Assembly: GCF_009177065.1 (NCBI RefSeq)
Contig: NZ_WEZF01000029.1
Span: 1-64,000 of the forward strand
DNA length: 64,000 nt
DNA from: Tautonia marina
GTDB lineage: Bacteria; Planctomycetota; Planctomycetia; Isosphaerales; Isosphaeraceae
Direction: 5' to 3'
A program made the translations under genes and the position numbers. The notes below the pieces were generated by a model, which saw nothing but the letters and a program-made list of their open reading frames with translations, did no database searches and had not been told where the DNA came from. Shown in pieces: positions 7,261 through 16,143 of this stretch. The first letter of the stretch is position 1, and the number at the start of each line of letters is the position of its first letter.

Positions 7261-9174
7261 ATGTCTTCGATCCTTCGTGCTTCGATTCAAACCGTGGCTC
7301 GTCCTCTTGCGATTGCCATTCCCTGGGTCGTGCTGCTCGGGACGGTCACGACGGCTCGATCCCAGGAGGCTGAGCCTGCGCTGGCCCGGCTCCAGACCGA
7401 CGTCTCCTTCCTCGCCGACGATGCGCAGGAAGGACGCGATCCCGGTTCCGCCGGGATCGAACGCGCGGCCCAGTACATCGCCAAGGTGTTCAAGGAGGCG
7501 GGCCTGGCTCCTGCCCCGGGCCTCGACGATTACTACCAGCCTTTCACCATCACCGGCTCGGCCCGGCTCGGCCGCTCTCAGAGCTTGGCCGCGACCGGGG
7601 ACGACGGCGAGACGATCGAGGGCCGACTCCGGCGCGATTTCATGCCGTTGAGCATCGGCGGCGCCGGCTCGTTCGAATCCCTCCCCATCGCCTTCGTCGG
7701 TTACGGCATCACGACTCCCGACGACGCCGAGTTCTCCTACGACGATTACGCCGGGATCGACGTTGACGGGAAGGTCGTCATCCTGCTCCGACGGGCGCCG
7801 AAGTACGACGTTCCGGGAAGCCCGTTCGCTCCCGATGGAGCCCGGCCGGTCGATGTAGCCACCTTCCGCCACAAGGCCATCAACGCCTTCCGCCACGGCG
7901 CGAGGGCCGTCTTCATGGTCAACGACGAGGCCGGGTTGAAGGGCGAGGAGGATGAACTCCTGCTGTTCACCTCCGCCGGCACCGATCGCATCACGACCAT
8001 TCCCTTTGTCATGGCCCGGCGAGCCTTTGTCGATCAGATTCTCCAGGCCGCCGACGCCCCGAGCCTGTCGGAACTCGAAGCCGCAATCAACGCCGACGAC
8101 CAGCCCAAACCCGCCAGCCGATTGCTCGACGGTGTCTCCCTGACCGCGTCGATCGACGTGGAACAGCCGACCATCGTGGCCAAGAACGTGGTCGGGGTGC
8201 TTGAAGGCTCCGGCCCGCTGGCCGACGAGACGGTGGTCATTGGTGCTCACTATGATCACCTCGGCAAAGGGGGGGCCGGATCGCTCGCCCCCTTCTCCCG
8301 AGACATCCACAACGGGGCCGATGACAACGCCTCGGGCACGTCGATGATGCTGGAGATGGTCCGACGCCTGGCCGCTCGTCCCGATCCGCTCCCTCGTCGC
8401 GTCGTCTTCATGGCCTTCTCGGCCGAGGAGCGCGGCTTGCTCGGCTCGCGGTTCTATGTTGAGGATCAGCCGCTTGTTCCGCTCGACCAGACCGTCTTCA
8501 TGTTCAACTTCGACATGGTTGGCCGCCTGAGCGAGTCGAGCGATCTGACCGTCTTCGGCGTTGATTCCACCCCCGGCCTGCGTGATCTGGTCATGGCGAT
8601 CGGCTCGTCTCATGGGTTCAACATCCGACCGAACGCCCAGGTGGCCGGCAACAGCGATCACGCCCCGTTCCACGATCGCGGCATCCCCGTGGCCTTCCTG
8701 TTCACCGGAACCCACACCGACTATCACCGTCCCAGCGACACGGCCGAGAAGGTCAATTACGAAGGGATGGCTCGCATTGCCGACTACGCGGAACTGCTCG
8801 TCCTCGATGTTGCCCGACGACCCGAACGCCCCGCCTTCTCCGTCAGCGAGGAGGCCGAGCCCGAGCCTCGCCGCATGGCTGCCGGCAACGGGGCTTCGCT
8901 TGGCACGATCCCCGATTATGATGAGAGCGTCGAAGGGCTTCGCCTCAACGGCGTCCGGGAAGGCAGCGCCGCCGACAAGGCAGGCCTGACCGGGGGCGAC
9001 ATTATCATCGGTTTCGCCGGCAAGCCCGTCGGCACGATCTACGACTTCATGGAAGGGCTCAACGAGTCGAAGCCCGGCGACCGCGTGAGCATCGAGATCC
9101 GCCGAGGCGACGAAACCCTGACCCTCGAAGCCGTCCTCGACGCCTCCGCCCCCCGAGAAGGGCACGGCGACTGA
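7261..9174 (+). CDS. Secreted M28 zinc aminopeptidase with PA and PDZ domains
   Basis: 637 residues. An export signal covers about residues 10-35. A PA-like insert (about 160-230, around GIDVDGKVVILLRRAPKYD) precedes the M28 core. Predicted zinc ligands and catalytic residues are visible: His330 in GAHYDH, Asp354 in GADDNASG, the Glu389-Glu390 pair in AEERG, Asp in NFDMVG, and the final His in HTDYHRPSD. The C-terminal ~80 residues form a PDZ domain (GSAADKAGLTGGDIIIGFAGK). This architecture is known for secreted aminopeptidases of planctomycetes and related bacteria. It probably trims peptides in the periplasm or outside the cell; the PDZ domain may bind substrate C-termini. All metal-site residues look intact, so it should be active. 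Confidence 0.93.
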   Translation: MSSILRASIQTVARPLAIAIPWVVLLGTVTTARSQEAEPALARLQTDVSFLADDAQEGRDPGSAGIERAAQYIAKVFKEAGLAPAPGLDDYYQPFTITGSARLGRSQSLAATGDDGETIEGRLRRDFMPLSIGGAGSFESLPIAFVGYGITTPDDAEFSYDDYAGIDVDGKVVILLRRAPKYDVPGSPFAPDGARPVDVATFRHKAINAFRHGARAVFMVNDEAGLKGEEDELLLFTSAGTDRITTIPFVMARRAFVDQILQAADAPSLSELEAAINADDQPKPASRLLDGVSLTASIDVEQPTIVAKNVVGVLEGSGPLADETVVIGAHYDHLGKGGAGSLAPFSRDIHNGADDNASGTSMMLEMVRRLAARPDPLPRRVVFMAFSAEERGLLGSRFYVEDQPLVPLDQTVFMFNFDMVGRLSESSDLTVFGVDSTPGLRDLVMAIGSSHGFNIRPNAQVAGNSDHAPFHDRGIPVAFLFTGTHTDYHRPSDTAEKVNYEGMARIADYAELLVLDVARRPERPAFSVSEEAEPEPRRMAAGNGASLGTIPDYDESVEGLRLNGVREGSAADKAGLTGGDIIIGFAGKPVGTIYDFMEGLNESKPGDRVSIEIRRGDETLTLEAVLDASAPREGHGD

Positions 9175-9189
9175 TCGAATGGATCGGCT

Positions 9190-9220
9190 CTGGCTGGGGT
9201 CGGATGATGACCCCAGTCAG
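9190..9220 (+). terminator. Hairpin after M28 peptidase gene
   Basis: A 12-bp stem with one G-U pair: CTGGCTGGGGTC (9190-9201) with GACCCCAGTCAG (9209-9220) and a 7-base loop, 15 bases after the stop. No T-tract follows, so it may stabilise mRNA or work with Rho rather than as a classical terminator. Confidence 0.55.
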
Positions 9221-9345: not shown

Positions 9346-10458
9346 ATGACTCGAACCGGATCATCGACGCTACTCCTCGGTTTTCTGCCGGCCGTTCTCC
9401 TGATTCTCTCGGGATGTTCGGACGATCGGTCCCCGGTCGTGATCGCGACCCCCTGGGGTCGCGCGACCTGCCGGCAGTTCACCACCCTCCTCGCCGAGTC
9501 TCCCGGCGATCCGATGCCCCCGATCCGCTGGGTGCGCCTCGATCGCTGGGACGACCCCGCTCACCTGCTCGACGCGGGACGAACTGTCCATCTGCTCCTC
9601 GGCTGGCCGACCGCGACCCTCCAGGAACTCGGTGATCGCAACCTTCTCGACGAGTCCGAAGACGCTCCGTTCCGCTGCCTCGGTCTCGAAGGTGCGGAAT
9701 CGTTTCCAATGTCCGACGCGGATCGGCGTTTCTCAGCGATCCTGCCCGGTGATCCTCGGATCGACCCGGTCGCCCGCGATCAGGTCGCCAGGCAACTGGC
9801 GTGGGCCGAAGGCCGAGACGCGGACCTCTCCCTCCTCGAACTGGGGGCCTCGTTCATTCCCGGCTCGGTCGATTCCCCTTCGATCGATCCCGATACCCGA
9901 GGCTTTAGCGTGGCTTCGATCGCCGCTCCTTCGAATTCCGGGGTCCAGGCTCTCCTCGACCGGCTCCGCCGAGGGTCGCTCATCGAGCCGCTCCCGATCC
10001 AGACCCCCTCTCCCGAGCGGACGCTCGCGGCCGAGCTGATCGGGGCCACGATCCTCGACGCCGGACCTGAGCTGCGTCGAGCCTTTCAGGCCATCGAGCA
10101 ATCACCGAACCCTCAGCTCGGTCGAGCCGTCCTCGCCGAGCCTCCCCCCTGGCCTCCCGACTCAATCCAACGGCTCACCACGAACGACCCGTCGTCTCGG
10201 TCCATGATCGAAACCTTGGCCGAGGCCCTGGTGGATGATCCCGAGTCGAGGGCCTGGCTGCTCGACTCCTGGCAGACACCCCCTCGCCCCGTCGATCGTG
10301 CCCTGCTGGATGCCCTGGCGACGGCCAACGACGGCCGCTTGCTGCAGTCGTCTCGGGTCTTGCCCTGGCTCCGCGCCGAATGGACGGCGTGGGCTCGACA
10401 GCGATTCTCCCAGCTTGCTCGGGAACTGGCCGCCGAAGCCGAGGAGGCCGCCCGATGA
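9346..10458 (+). CDS. Lipoprotein, divergent solute-binding component of ABC importer
   Basis: 370 residues from the ATG at 9346; an in-frame TTG lies 30 bases earlier, but the ATG gives a normal lipoprotein signal with lipobox LSGC near residue 24. The body resembles a shortened and diverged periplasmic solute-binding protein rather than a clean family member; I assign the role mainly from context. Its stop overlaps the next gene's start in an ATGA arrangement, and the following two genes encode an ABC ATPase and a fused permease of the ferric/sulfate-type importer class. The central part is proline-, arginine- and aspartate-rich. An alternative is a lipoprotein of unknown role co-transcribed with the transporter. 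Confidence 0.65.
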   Translation: MTRTGSSTLLLGFLPAVLLILSGCSDDRSPVVIATPWGRATCRQFTTLLAESPGDPMPPIRWVRLDRWDDPAHLLDAGRTVHLLLGWPTATLQELGDRNLLDESEDAPFRCLGLEGAESFPMSDADRRFSAILPGDPRIDPVARDQVARQLAWAEGRDADLSLLELGASFIPGSVDSPSIDPDTRGFSVASIAAPSNSGVQALLDRLRRGSLIEPLPIQTPSPERTLAAELIGATILDAGPELRRAFQAIEQSPNPQLGRAVLAEPPPWPPDSIQRLTTNDPSSRSMIETLAEALVDDPESRAWLLDSWQTPPRPVDRALLDALATANDGRLLQSSRVLPWLRAEWTAWARQRFSQLARELAAEAEEAAR

Positions 10459-11570
10459 GCCGCTTGCTCTGCGAAGGGCTTTCGAAACGCTACGATCGGA
10501 TCGCGGTCGTCGATGAAGTGAGCCTCGATGTCCGCTCCGGACAATGGCTCTCGGTCCTCGGTCCCGCCGGATCGGGCAAATCGACCCTCGCCCGCCTGAT
10601 CGTCGGGCTCGACCGTCCCGATCGCGGCGAGATTTTCGTTGACGATCGTTTGATCCAGTCTACCCGGCCCCACGAGCGCGGGTTCGGCTATCTGGGGCAG
10701 TCCGAGGCCCTCTGGCCTCATCTGACGATTGCCGAAAATGTCGGCCACGGGCTCCGCGCCCGGGGAATCGCTCGCAAGGACCGACGCCGCAAGGTTGAGG
10801 AAGCCCTCACGACGATCGGCCTGGAAACCCTGGCCGATCGGCTCCCTGCCGCCCTCGACGACCTCCAGCGCCGACGGGCCGAGCTGGCCCGAGCGATCGT
10901 CGATGACCCCCGCATCCTCATCCTCGACGAGCCGACCGAGCCCCTCGAACCGCGCAATCGCCCCGCCTTTCGAGAGGAGTTGCGACGGCTCCGCGCCGGT
11001 TGGGATCGAACGGTCGTCGTCTTCACCCAGCATCGCGACGACGCCTTCGCCTTCTCCGATCACCTGGCCGTGATGGACCTGGGGCGGATCGTTCAGGTCG
11101 GCTCGTCCGAGGTGGTCTACAGCACTCCGGCCGACGCCTTCGTTGCCCAGTTGCTCGGGCCGGTCAACCTGTTACAAGGACAGGTGGCCGGGGCCTCGAT
11201 GTCGGGAGAGCTGTTCGTCCGCACCACCATCGGCCGCCTCGTCGGCCGCCTGGCAACCCGCGGCGAGCCTCCGGTCGGCACGCCGGTCACGGTGGCCATC
11301 CGGCCCGAGTCGATCCGGCTCGGTCCGAACTTGCCGGTCGATGCCAACCGGTTTCAGGTGACCGTCGAGCGCCAGGTCTTTCAAGGGGCCTTGCGGTCGA
11401 TCGACCTGCGAGGCCCCGGCGACTGGCCACTGGTGGCCTCGGCCCTGCATCCGCAGGCCCCCGACCTCCGCGAAGGCCAGCCCTTGACCGTCGCCGTCAC
11501 CCCCGATCATGTCGTGGTCCTGCTCGGTCGCTATGCCACCGTGCCGAAGTCCGGCGAAGCGGTCTCGTGA
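10455..11570 (+). CDS. ABC importer ATPase with degenerate signature motif
   Basis: 371 residues. The ATG at 10455 overlaps the upstream stop by four bases. The N-terminal 230 residues are an ABC ATPase of the FbpC/PotA/MalK type: Walker A GPAGSGKST (36-44), Q-loop LGQSEALWP (80-88), Walker B ILILDEP (154-160) and switch His193. The C-terminal ~120 residues look like a TOBE domain (TVAIRPESIRLG). Two motifs are wrong: the signature normally reading LSGGQ is LDDLQ (134-138), and the D-loop, normally SxLD, reads PLEP. The rest of the helix after the signature (RRRAELARAI) is conserved, so the alignment is not in doubt. It should power the permease encoded downstream; whether it hydrolyses ATP normally is open. 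Confidence 0.88.
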   Translation: MSRLLCEGLSKRYDRIAVVDEVSLDVRSGQWLSVLGPAGSGKSTLARLIVGLDRPDRGEIFVDDRLIQSTRPHERGFGYLGQSEALWPHLTIAENVGHGLRARGIARKDRRRKVEEALTTIGLETLADRLPAALDDLQRRRAELARAIVDDPRILILDEPTEPLEPRNRPAFREELRRLRAGWDRTVVVFTQHRDDAFAFSDHLAVMDLGRIVQVGSSEVVYSTPADAFVAQLLGPVNLLQGQVAGASMSGELFVRTTIGRLVGRLATRGEPPVGTPVTVAIRPESIRLGPNLPVDANRFQVTVERQVFQGALRSIDLRGPGDWPLVASALHPQAPDLREGQPLTVAVTPDHVVVLLGRYATVPKSGEAVS

Positions 11571-11587
11571 CGCTCTTGGAGAGGCCG

Positions 11588-13264
11588 ATGACCCGACTCG
11601 TCAGGCTCCTCGGAGCCCTGCTCGCCCTGGCCGTGATGATCGCTCCGGTGATCGGCCTGGCCCTGGCCTCGATCTTCGCCGTCGAGCCGGCCGACGACCT
11701 CCGCGCAACCGTCGTCCACTGGGGGCTGACCCTCTCCGATCCGTTTGCGCGCGACTGCCTTGGTCACAGCCTGGCGATCACCGTCGTGGTCGTCGCGCTG
11801 GCCACACTCACCGGTATCACGCTCGCCCGCATCGCCTGGGGATGCCGAGGGTGGCGAAGGGCCATCCCCCTCACCTTGATTCGCCTCGGCGCCGGATGCC
11901 ACCCCTTCGTGATGGCAATGGCCTGGATGATGGTTCTTTCACGCCTTGACCCATCGATCCGTTCCTTCCCGCGCTGGGAATGGCTCGACGGCGACCGTGG
12001 CCGATGGCTCCTGCTGGGATTGGCGCAGTTCGGGTTTGCCTCGGCCTGGATTGCCTGGTGGACCGGCCGGGCGCTCGATCGGATCGGGCCGCAGTGGCAG
12101 CGGGTGGCCTCCATCTCCGGAGCCGGTCGCGGATGGGTCTGGCGCACCTCGATCTGGCCCCTCGTCCGGCCGACGGTCGCCCGCGTCTCGGCCTCGGTCT
12201 TCGCCGTCCTCCTCATCGAGCCGGGAGCGCCTCTGGTGCTTGGCCTTCGCCAAACCCTTGGCGCTCAAATCGTCGGCTCCCTCTGGATGACCTCCCGCAA
12301 CGACGCCCCTCGGGCTGCGATTCTGACGGCCCTGGCCCTCGTGCTCTCACTGCTGGTCCGTCTGGCCTTGAAACGCTGGGGAGGCCCCGACCACCTGGCC
12401 TCCCTCCCTCGATCCTCCAGTGATCCTGCCGAGCCGATCGTCCCGTGGGGCCGTTTCCGATCCTTCGCCGCCGTCGTCGCGCTGATCGGCTGGGCGGCAA
12501 TCACCCTTGGCCCGGCCGTGGCGCTGGCGATCGAGTGCTTCCGATCCCCTCAAGTCCTTGCTGGGTCGGCCACCGCTGCACAAGCCATCTGGCGAGAGCT
12601 GGCTCCCCTGCTCGGAGGGGCGCTGGCGCTAGGGGGGGCTTCGACCTTCCTCGCCATGACCCTGGCCTGGCCCCTCTCGGCCTTCCGACGCACCGGATCG
12701 GCCGTCAGCCTGCTCAACGCGGTTCCGCCGTTGGCAATCGGCGTTGGGTTGCTTGGGATCTGGCAGATGGCCCGGTCGTGGACCTCGACTGGAGCCGATC
12801 CGGTCGGTGCGGTCCTCCCGACGCTCGGCCTCTGGCTCGATCCCTACCGCTTCCCCTGGCTCCTCGTGTCCTGGGGAACGGCCCTCGTCCTTTTGCCCTG
12901 GGCCGTCGAGGCCGCCCGATCGGCGCGATCGCTCGACGCGACGGCCCTTCAAGAGGAGGCCCGCGTGGCTGGTCGTCGCCTGGCCTTCAGCCGGACCTTG
13001 CTCTTTCTCCCGATCGCGCTGCGGCGCTGCGTCGTGCCCGCGCTGGGGATGGTCCTGCTTGCGGCGTCCGGCCTCTCACCGGCCCTGGTGCTGACCCCCC
13101 TGGAACCCTTCCGACCGGTAGCCGCCTGGGTCGTTCGAGACGCGATCCACGAGCCGATCGCAGGACCGGCCATGCTCCTGACTCTGGTGGGCCCGATGCT
13201 CGGTGGGTTGCTGCTGCTGCGTCGGGATCGAGCCCCAGAATCCCTGACGATCCTCCGGAGCTGA
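11588..13264 (+). CDS. Fused-type ABC importer permease (FbpB-like)
   Basis: 558 residues from the ATG at 11588, which has GGAG about 7 bases upstream; a GTG at 11567 overlapping the ATPase stop is the alternative. About twelve hydrophobic segments in two halves match the duplicated binding-protein-dependent permease seen in ferric-iron and thiamine importers (two BPD_transp_1 domains in one chain). The EAA-type cytoplasmic loops are weak: ALQEEARVAGRRLAFSRTLL near residue 455 in the second half fits, while the first-half loop is around RVASISGAGRGWVWRTS. It closes the lipoprotein-ATPase-permease operon. Substrate unknown; iron, thiamine or a phosphonate-like compound are all possible by family. 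Confidence 0.82.
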   Translation: MTRLVRLLGALLALAVMIAPVIGLALASIFAVEPADDLRATVVHWGLTLSDPFARDCLGHSLAITVVVVALATLTGITLARIAWGCRGWRRAIPLTLIRLGAGCHPFVMAMAWMMVLSRLDPSIRSFPRWEWLDGDRGRWLLLGLAQFGFASAWIAWWTGRALDRIGPQWQRVASISGAGRGWVWRTSIWPLVRPTVARVSASVFAVLLIEPGAPLVLGLRQTLGAQIVGSLWMTSRNDAPRAAILTALALVLSLLVRLALKRWGGPDHLASLPRSSSDPAEPIVPWGRFRSFAAVVALIGWAAITLGPAVALAIECFRSPQVLAGSATAAQAIWRELAPLLGGALALGGASTFLAMTLAWPLSAFRRTGSAVSLLNAVPPLAIGVGLLGIWQMARSWTSTGADPVGAVLPTLGLWLDPYRFPWLLVSWGTALVLLPWAVEAARSARSLDATALQEEARVAGRRLAFSRTLLFLPIALRRCVVPALGMVLLAASGLSPALVLTPLEPFRPVAAWVVRDAIHEPIAGPAMLLTLVGPMLGGLLLLRRDRAPESLTILRS

Positions 13265-13422
13265 GTCTTCTTCCAAAGGGGACCGAATTCCCCCCGGCGG
13301 GCTCACATTCCCGATGACCGCACCGAGGCTCGTTCAGGTTAAAAAAACTCGCGTGTCACACGACCTTGGTGGTAGCTTCAGAATCGGGGGACAAGGATTC
13401 CTCATAGATGTCGAGGTGTGTG

Positions 13423-16143
13423 ATGAATGCCGATCGTGAGTTGCACCTCTTGTTGTTGGCGATTCAGAAACACGTGATCGACCCTGCCCTGCTGACCGAA
13501 GTGATTGCCGACTGGGCTCCCCTGGGTTCGGACGACGGCTTCATGTCCTTCCTGGTCGGTCGAGGAGCGCTCACCCCCGACGACCTGAAACGCCTCGAAT
13601 CCCTCTCCACCTTCCCCGGGGCTCAAGGCACAGAGTCTGCCTCCTCGATCGCCTTGCCATCGCTTCCTCTGAGCCCGCACGCGACGACCGCGGGCGACCC
13701 GCTGACGGGGAGTGAAACGATTCCCTTTGAATCCGGGAGCGAGTCTGCCCCATCGAACGGACGGGGCGGACCCTTCGTCCCCCCTCAACGTTACGAGATC
13801 CTCGAACTGCACGAGACAGGTGGCCTGGGCCTCATCTGGAAGGCCAGGGATACCGTGATCGGCCGAGAGGTCGCGCTGAAGACCCTCCGTCCCGACCGAG
13901 CTGCGACCGAAACCGCCCGATCTCGGTTTGTTCGAGAGGCCCAGGTTACGGGCCAGCTTGAACATCCGAGCATTGTTCCGCTGTATGATCTCTCCAGCAG
14001 CGGAGACGACCCGTTCTATGTGATGCGGTTCATCTCCGGCCGGACCCTGTCTCAGGTTTCGGCCGAGTATCACCGCCGCCGACAGGCCGATCAGGTCGGC
14101 CCGCTTGATCTGGTGAGCCTGCTCGACGCTTTCGTCGGCGTCTGTCGAGCGGTCGCCTTCGCCCACCGGCACGATGTCTTGCACCGCGATTTGAAGGGGC
14201 AAAATGTTGTCGTCGGCGAGTTCGGCGAGGTCTTTCTGCTCGACTGGGGCCTGGCCAAGCACGTCGGCGATCTGGTCGATCCGGTCGGGGCCGCGTCCAT
14301 CGACGGCGGTCTCGGCGGCGAGGACACCGCGCCCGGTTCCGCCGTCGGCACCCCCGGCTACATGGCCCCCGAGGTCGCGCGGGGGGCCGGCTCCACGAAG
14401 CAGTCCGACATCTACGGTCTGGGGGCGGTCCTCTATTCCCTCCTGACCGGCAAGGCACCCTATTCCGGATCGTCCGTCAATGAGGTCTTGCGCAAGATCC
14501 TCGCGACCGATCCCGAGCCGATCCGGTCGATCAACCCCCAGGTCCCCCCCCCGCTCGAAGCCATCTGCCAGAAGGCGATGGCCCGTACCCCGGATGATCG
14601 GTACGACTCGGCCGAGGAGGTTGCCACCGAGGTCCGTCGATGGCTCGCCGACGAGCCGGTCACCGCCTACGCCGAACCCTGGGGCATCCGTCTCGCCCGT
14701 TGGGCCAGGCGTCGGAAAACCACGGTTATCGCGGTGGCCATCTTTCTCATGACCGCCGCGCTGGTCGCCGCCCTCGCCGCGGTCTTGCTCTGGCAGGAGG
14801 AACAGCAGACCGAGGCCGCCAGGGGCCTTGCCGAACGCAACGCTCAGCGTGCCCAGCAGGAACAAACACGGGCCGAACAAAACGCCCGGCGTGCCCAGGC
14901 CGAACAGATCGTCGCCGAGCAGAACGCCGAGCTTGCCCGATCCGTCAGCGCCGATGCCCTGGCCCTCGTCCAGAACGTCGAGTGGGTTCTCGCCTCGACC
15001 GAGCCCCTGCATCGCTTCCGCAAGGACCTGCTCGATTCCGGCAGCCGGGCCTTCCGCGACCATCTCGCCCGCGATCCCGACGACACCGTCACCATTTCTC
15101 AGGCCGCCTCCGTCTTCCTCTACACCGCCAACGTCTTCCGCCTGGAAGGAGACGACGCCACCGCCGACACCCTCTACCGCGAGGCCGTCGAGCAACTCGA
15201 ACGCCTGATCGCCACCGATCCGGCCGACCCCGCCCCTCGGCTCCGGCTCGCAAACGCCCTGAAGGACTGGGCCGTCCTCCACACCCGAACCGGGCCCCAG
15301 GCCGATGCCCTCGCCCTCTACCAGCGGGCGAGGGACGCGCTGGAGCCCCTGCGAGGGCCGGAGGACGAACGGGCCGAGGTCCGACGCTCGCTCGGCCGGA
15401 TTCGCGTCAACCAGGCCGTCAGCCTCGACCATCTCGCGGATCAAGCCGCCGCCCTCGCGGCCGCCCGGGAAGCCGCCGACCTGTTCGCCGAGCTGCTCGA
15501 CGCCCCCCCGGCCGACCGCCACCCTTACGACCCCTTGATGCTCGCCCGAGCCCTGACCCTCGTCGCCGCCCGAGAGCGGGACCTCGGCCGGATCGATCGG
15601 GCCAAAGAAATCCACGTCGAGGCGGTTCGGGCCTACGAGGCCCCCAACCGATCGACCCCTTACGGCGTCACTCAGGCCGATGTGGCCTGGACCGTCGCCC
15701 TCTGCCGCCTGGAACGGGGCAAGACCTGGGCCCTTGACCGCGATCCGAGAGCCTGGGGAGCCCTCGACGCGGCCATCAGCGCCTTCGAACAGCTCGACGC
15801 CGGCTTCCCTTGGGTCATCGGCTACTCGTCCGGACTGGCCGAGGCGCTGCTCACCCGAGCCGACGCCAAGGCCGCCGTCGGCTTCCCCGACGCCTTCGAC
15901 GATTACGAACGAGCCCGAGCCGTCGCCGATCGTCTCGTCACCCAGCACCCCGACGTGGCCGAATACCTCCGATTGCTCGGCAAGAGCCTGTTGGGCCTGG
16001 CCCAGACCACCCGAGACGACCCCGATCGCCGCCTCGATCGGCTCCGCCAGGCCGAGCAGCACCTTGCCGCCGCCGTTGAGGCCGACCCCGAGGTCGTCGT
16101 GGCTCGGGAGGCCCTCGACGAGGTCCGGGCCGCCCTTCCTTGA
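13423..16143 (+). CDS. Membrane Ser/Thr protein kinase with TPR C-terminus
   Basis: 906 residues from the ATG at 13423, which has GAGG 6 bases upstream; an in-frame ATG at 13408 is possible. A ~115-residue N-terminal region precedes a PknB-type kinase domain (about 122-420). The ATP lysine (VALKTL, Lys153), catalytic HRDLKGQN (Asp256, Asn261) and APE motif (YMAPE) are present. The Mg-binding DFG reads DWG, a substitution common in this planctomycete kinase group, and the glycine loop is weak (TGGLGL). After one membrane helix (about 433-457) comes a Glu/Gln/Ala-rich coiled stretch and a TPR-like helical repeat region (about 550-900), probably periplasmic. The layout suggests a sensor kinase; partners are unknown. 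No terminator is obvious upstream, and the gene has its own leader. Confidence 0.92.
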   Translation: MNADRELHLLLLAIQKHVIDPALLTEVIADWAPLGSDDGFMSFLVGRGALTPDDLKRLESLSTFPGAQGTESASSIALPSLPLSPHATTAGDPLTGSETIPFESGSESAPSNGRGGPFVPPQRYEILELHETGGLGLIWKARDTVIGREVALKTLRPDRAATETARSRFVREAQVTGQLEHPSIVPLYDLSSSGDDPFYVMRFISGRTLSQVSAEYHRRRQADQVGPLDLVSLLDAFVGVCRAVAFAHRHDVLHRDLKGQNVVVGEFGEVFLLDWGLAKHVGDLVDPVGAASIDGGLGGEDTAPGSAVGTPGYMAPEVARGAGSTKQSDIYGLGAVLYSLLTGKAPYSGSSVNEVLRKILATDPEPIRSINPQVPPPLEAICQKAMARTPDDRYDSAEEVATEVRRWLADEPVTAYAEPWGIRLARWARRRKTTVIAVAIFLMTAALVAALAAVLLWQEEQQTEAARGLAERNAQRAQQEQTRAEQNARRAQAEQIVAEQNAELARSVSADALALVQNVEWVLASTEPLHRFRKDLLDSGSRAFRDHLARDPDDTVTISQAASVFLYTANVFRLEGDDATADTLYREAVEQLERLIATDPADPAPRLRLANALKDWAVLHTRTGPQADALALYQRARDALEPLRGPEDERAEVRRSLGRIRVNQAVSLDHLADQAAALAAAREAADLFAELLDAPPADRHPYDPLMLARALTLVAARERDLGRIDRAKEIHVEAVRAYEAPNRSTPYGVTQADVAWTVALCRLERGKTWALDRDPRAWGALDAAISAFEQLDAGFPWVIGYSSGLAEALLTRADAKAAVGFPDAFDDYERARAVADRLVTQHPDVAEYLRLLGKSLLGLAQTTRDDPDRRLDRLRQAEQHLAAAVEADPEVVVAREALDEVRAALP

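Follow-up and report, generated by a model that had tools for sequence, protein, structure and literature searches.

Here, we describe a four-gene locus in the window, i.e., the entire 64,000-nucleotide stretch of Tautonia marina DNA that was analyzed, in which an M28-type peptidase, a lipoprotein, an ABC ATPase with degenerate motifs and a permease are encoded on the forward strand. The genes and their features are the following:

7261–9174, + strand: M28-type peptidase with a PDZ-like tail, first gene of the cluster (sequence reading and synteny)
9346–10458, + strand: lipoprotein, lipobox LSGC at residue 24 (codon 9415–9417; AlphaFold2, fold search and profile)
10018–10455, + strand: helical C-terminal domain of the lipoprotein, PPWPP ... 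WLRAEWTAWARQR (alignment; pLDDT above 90)
10455–11570, + strand: degenerate ABC ATPase of the FbpC/PotA type, nucleotide-binding domain (NBD) plus TOBE, 371 aa (ORF, Pfam, AlphaFold2 and fold match)
10560–10583, + strand: Walker A GPAGSGKS, residues 36–43, intact
10698–10700, + strand: Q-loop Gln82, intact
10854–10868, + strand: signature LDDLQ in place of LSGGQ, residues 134–138
10914–10931, + strand: Walker B ILILDE, residues 154–159, with Asp158 and Glu159 intact
10938–10949, + strand: degenerate D-loop EPLE where SxLD is expected, residues 162–165 (alignment with orthologs and the canonical set)
11028–11033, + strand: Gln192 at the switch-His position, followed by His193 (register from alignments)
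11292–11522, + strand: TOBE_2 domain, residues 280–356, unusually conserved relative to the NBD (Pfam and identity comparison)
11588–13264, + strand: permease of two fused halves with about 10 hydrophobic segments, alternative GTG start at 11567 (weak PF00528 and hydrophobicity)

The stop of the lipoprotein gene (10458) and the start of the ATPase gene (10455) overlap by 4 bp, and the permease gene follows directly downstream. The first-pass annotation had described overlapping genes in a complete operon, and the ATPase is indeed encoded together with a binding protein-like lipoprotein and a permease, as is typical of FbpC/PotA/MalK-type importer ATPases. Behind the cluster, the window encodes a Ser/Thr protein kinase whose C-terminal region is long (13408–16143); locus L065 has such a gene as well.

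The window ATPase has the fold of this importer type, an ABC NBD followed by a TOBE domain (PF00005, E 2e-29; PF08402, E 2e-9). Its AlphaFold2 model, which like our other structure models is of a single chain, has a pLDDT of 90.3, and the top fold match is Thermus FbpBC (9j4r), the closest solved system, with 34% identity to chain 9j4r_B in the structural match. Residues ∼27 to 240 of the lipoprotein (pLDDT 83.7) adopt a periplasmic binding-protein fold of the FbpA/ModA type, with VIA-align Z scores of up to 10.6 to ModA and 9.9 to FbpA; Pfam profiles for substrate-binding proteins match weakly (SBP_bac_11 in 4 of 32 and SBP_bac_1 in 2 of 32 members) and are not found on the window lipoprotein. 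PF00528 was detected in 12 of 25 permease members, also weakly. In the permeases, EAA loop 1 is kept while loop 2 is eroded, and its LP is lost in nearly all members across the order.

Catalytic motifs across the Isosphaerales

The first-pass annotation had read LDDLQ for LSGGQ and a degenerate D-loop next to an intact Walker A, Q-loop and Walker B, and on all these points our alignments agree with it (Walker B reads LILDE at residues 155–159). The switch His, which it had also taken to be intact, was misread: when Thermus FbpC (9j4r) and canonical relatives are aligned with the window protein, T-Q192-H193 falls opposite canonical T-H-D, so that the switch-His column holds Gln192 and the His that was seen, His193, lies on the canonical Asp.

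Orthologs of the ATPase were found in 36 of 45 Isosphaerales genomes, some of them fragmentary, at E 1e-60; three genomes of genus g19 and one with a partial sequence came from a profile search, giving 40 of 45. Motifs were counted in 38 aligned orthologs and in 27 canonical relatives that were picked by score and include 13 same-family paralogs from Isosphaerales genomes. Two classes of residues emerge. First, the Walker A Lys and the Walker B Asp are present in 38/38 orthologs, and the Walker A Ser/Thr is likewise kept in every member of the clade. Second, the residues that clamp ATP in trans or take part in hydrolysis and coupling drift. LSGGQ is absent from all orthologs found (0/38 aligned); the first signature Gly is kept in 2/38, Pro being the commonest residue at this position, and the second in 5/38 (LTPGQ type), while Ser or Thr precedes them in 30/38. 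The catalytic Glu is kept in 24/38 and otherwise replaced by Asp, Ala or Ser, the Q-loop Gln in 16/38 and the switch His in only 3/38. By contrast, Walker A, the Q-loop Gln, Ser-Gly-Gly, Glu, the D-loop Asp and the switch His are intact in 27/27 canonical relatives. Columns Q82, G136, G137 and H192 are at the 88th to 90th percentile of variability among NBD columns in the orthologs and have zero entropy in the canonical relatives. The best-scoring relatives elsewhere in the phylum (12 loci sampled) keep both LSGGQ and the switch His.

LDDLQ itself is shared by each of the four genomes sampled from the genus, including Tautonia sociabilis. Because these genomes differ from the window by a dS of about 0.6 to 0.9 and LSGGQ is lost throughout the order, LDDLQ does not reflect chance; a local mutation or sequencing error is ruled out by the order-wide loss. 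Relatives with a normal LSGGQ, named beforehand as grounds for abandoning the reading, were sought among the orthologs of the order, and none was found. LDDLQ is real, and the earlier scope of a single genome was far too narrow.

The ATPases of genus g19 (L130, L131 and L132) are the most eroded, with signatures such as LTPIES and, in one protein, a Walker A of GRPESGKT. At locus L073, the C-terminal (TOBE) region of the ATPase occurs a second time as a partial copy (11158–11808), with the full-length gene about 4 kb upstream.

Because the Glu is kept in 24/38 orthologs, slow turnover is possible in some of them, the window protein included. We consider it distinctly improbable that the system as a whole is a genuine ATP-driven importer, slow and tolerant of unusual motifs. 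Such an importer would fit the retained Glu, the Ser or Thr of the signature and the strong purifying selection described below; it fits poorly with four catalytic elements drifting together when each is invariant in canonical relatives, and with Pro as the most frequent replacement of the first signature Gly.

Descent, selection and conservation of the cluster

In a maximum-likelihood tree calculated after removal of the catalytic-motif columns, with column 192 still included, the degenerate ATPases form a single clade with a support of 99/100. The two glycines of the signature had probably already disappeared at the base of this clade. Parsimony on the same tree requires eight changes for the Glu and nine for the Gln and, therefore, these residues were lost (or regained) repeatedly.

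Strong purifying selection acts on the ATPase gene. In the comparison of the window with its nearest relative, dN/dS of this gene is 0.069, lower than that of the peptidase (0.111), the permease (0.26) and the lipoprotein (0.40), and in four other species pairs it is 0.07 to 0.18. A pseudogene is ruled out by a dN/dS of 0.07 and, with the gene cluster conserved as well, the earlier statement that this is not a decaying pseudogene is borne out. Constraint is also distributed unusually. When nine genomes are compared, identity among their degenerate ATPases is 46% for the NBD and 47% for the TOBE region, while CysA from the same genomes reaches 79% and 40%, respectively. The surplus of constraint that an NBD normally shows has disappeared, and TOBE is somewhat better conserved than in CysA. 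In the lipoprotein, the C-terminal domain is the best-conserved part (dN/dS of 0.26 versus 0.49 for the N-terminal part). The fold search, which hardly probed this domain, assigned no fold to it, and we do not present it as a new one.

At 34 of 38 Isosphaerales loci, the genes for the M28 peptidase, the lipoprotein and the ATPase follow one another in this order, and three of the four exceptions are on short contigs. Depending on the genus, the permease gene lies directly after the ATPase gene, behind an opposite-strand gene, at a distance of several kilobases or on a different contig. A permease ortholog was also sought in genus g19, and no clear one was found. In several genera, the opposite-strand gene between ATPase and permease is quinone oxidoreductase/alcohol dehydrogenase-like (L084, 7290–8354; L093, 7150–8238), and at locus L068 a transposase-like gene (7746–9215) occupies this place.

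The lack of a clear permease in g19, together with the fast divergence of the lipoprotein and the permease (beyond the genus, identity to the window is about 20 to 34%), is what would be expected of a relic that is slowly decaying after its role has gone. We regard such a relic as very improbable: the low dN/dS of the ATPase, the intact reading frames and the occurrence of the lipoprotein in 44 of 45 genomes (profile match) and of the ATPase in 40 of 45 already largely refute it.

Possible functions of the degenerate ATPase

The explanation that we favor, with somewhat better than even confidence, is that a ferric importer-type ATPase has turned into an ATP-holding subunit of an envelope complex, with a structural or regulatory function and with poor or no hydrolysis. 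The Isosphaerales-wide clade would descend from an ATPase that served an ordinary importer of the ferric type (FbpABC/PotABCD-like). With the cis ATP-holding residues (Walker A Lys and Ser/Thr, Walker B Asp) fixed, Mg-ATP binding would most likely be retained. With the trans-clamping signature and the residues for hydrolysis and coupling (Glu, switch His, Gln and D-loop) lost or drifting, the protein would not pass through a normal cycle of sandwich formation and hydrolysis. It would, instead, serve as a constitutive or ATP-responsive subunit in a complex with the binding protein-like lipoprotein and the fused permease. Such a combination of fixed cis residues with drifting trans and hydrolytic residues would be expected where ATP is held and the hydrolytic cycle is no longer selected, and the residue pattern also fits the earlier suggestion of an ATP-binding-only protein. 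We infer that ATPases of the window type bind ATP, lack turnover and form a complex; such an ATPase may sense ATP or gate the permease. In PotA, a protein of the same subfamily, the γ-phosphate is bound by a His and by the Ser of the signature, and replacing that Ser with Ala diminished ATPase activity (PMC11414716). Normal ATP turnover is likely absent. Three observations restrain this explanation. The catalytic Glu retained in 24/38 orthologs, with the slow turnover that it may allow, and the second signature Gly kept in five orthologs count against it. Moreover, loss of the consensus is by itself no proof that the sandwich is lost because SUR1 closes on ATP with FSQGQ (PMC5790381).

A bolder version, to which we give a little less than even odds, is that the cluster is an ATP-sensing pseudo-transporter throughout the order, in which the only NBD binds ATP and never hydrolyzes it, and in which the TOBE domain and the C-terminal domain of the lipoprotein are the working surfaces.

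Alternatively, the importer might still work because its permease is served by a canonical ATPase from elsewhere in the genome, paired with the degenerate one or in its place, in an MsmX-like sharing arrangement. The genome encodes many intact-looking ABC ATPases, EAA loop 1 of the permease is retained, and the Walker A, Gln and Glu of the window protein could, with the LSGGQ of a canonical partner, give one partly working site. Shared ATPases do exist; however, they had been reported only for sugar importers, according to the same source (PMC5730181). Most orthologs lack the signature and also the His or the Glu, so that neither site of a mixed dimer would be left undamaged. The cluster contains a single NBD gene, and the second, intact NBD partner of heterodimeric ABC proteins is not encoded in it. 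Finally, the LP of EAA loop 2 is gone in nearly all permeases. Altogether, we consider this arrangement unlikely.

An ATP-holding subunit as favored here can be compared with two groups of known systems. The FbpABC/PotABCD/MalK-type ATPases share with the window type the NBD-plus-TOBE fold and the gene order with a binding protein and a permease; they differ in that the window type has lost the signature, switch His and D-loop and, in many orthologs, the Glu and Gln as well. ABC proteins with degenerate sites (TM287/288, BmrCD, TmrAB, TAP, CFTR and SUR1) have similarly lost the signature, Glu or His while keeping ATP binding, and the use of an ABC protein as a nucleotide sensor has a precedent in SUR1. 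These proteins function as exporters or regulate channels, and they retain one intact site; a degenerate ABC site is known as one half of an asymmetric machine. The Isosphaerales cluster, by contrast, is importer-type, and its only NBD gene is degenerate across the whole order. In a limited search of open-license PMC papers, no published description of such a degenerate clade was found. An order-wide, conserved cluster in which the sole ATPase gene is degenerate is a natural experiment that separates ATP holding from hydrolysis; with about 40 natural variants carrying differing combinations of lost motifs, it becomes directly testable what an ABC NBD is capable of without hydrolysis.

A few other Planctomycetes carry an intact sister operon (L133 and L134; also L180 and L187) with the same order of lipoprotein, ATPase and fused permease. 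In contrast to the Isosphaerales cluster, LSGGQ, DEP-SNL and THD are intact in these ATPases, and the C-terminal domain of the lipoprotein is only partly present. The lipoproteins of L133 and L134 have a short C-terminal segment in common with the Isosphaerales lipoprotein (profile positions 244–286), and this lineage-specific domain is partly present already in the intact sister operon of L133.
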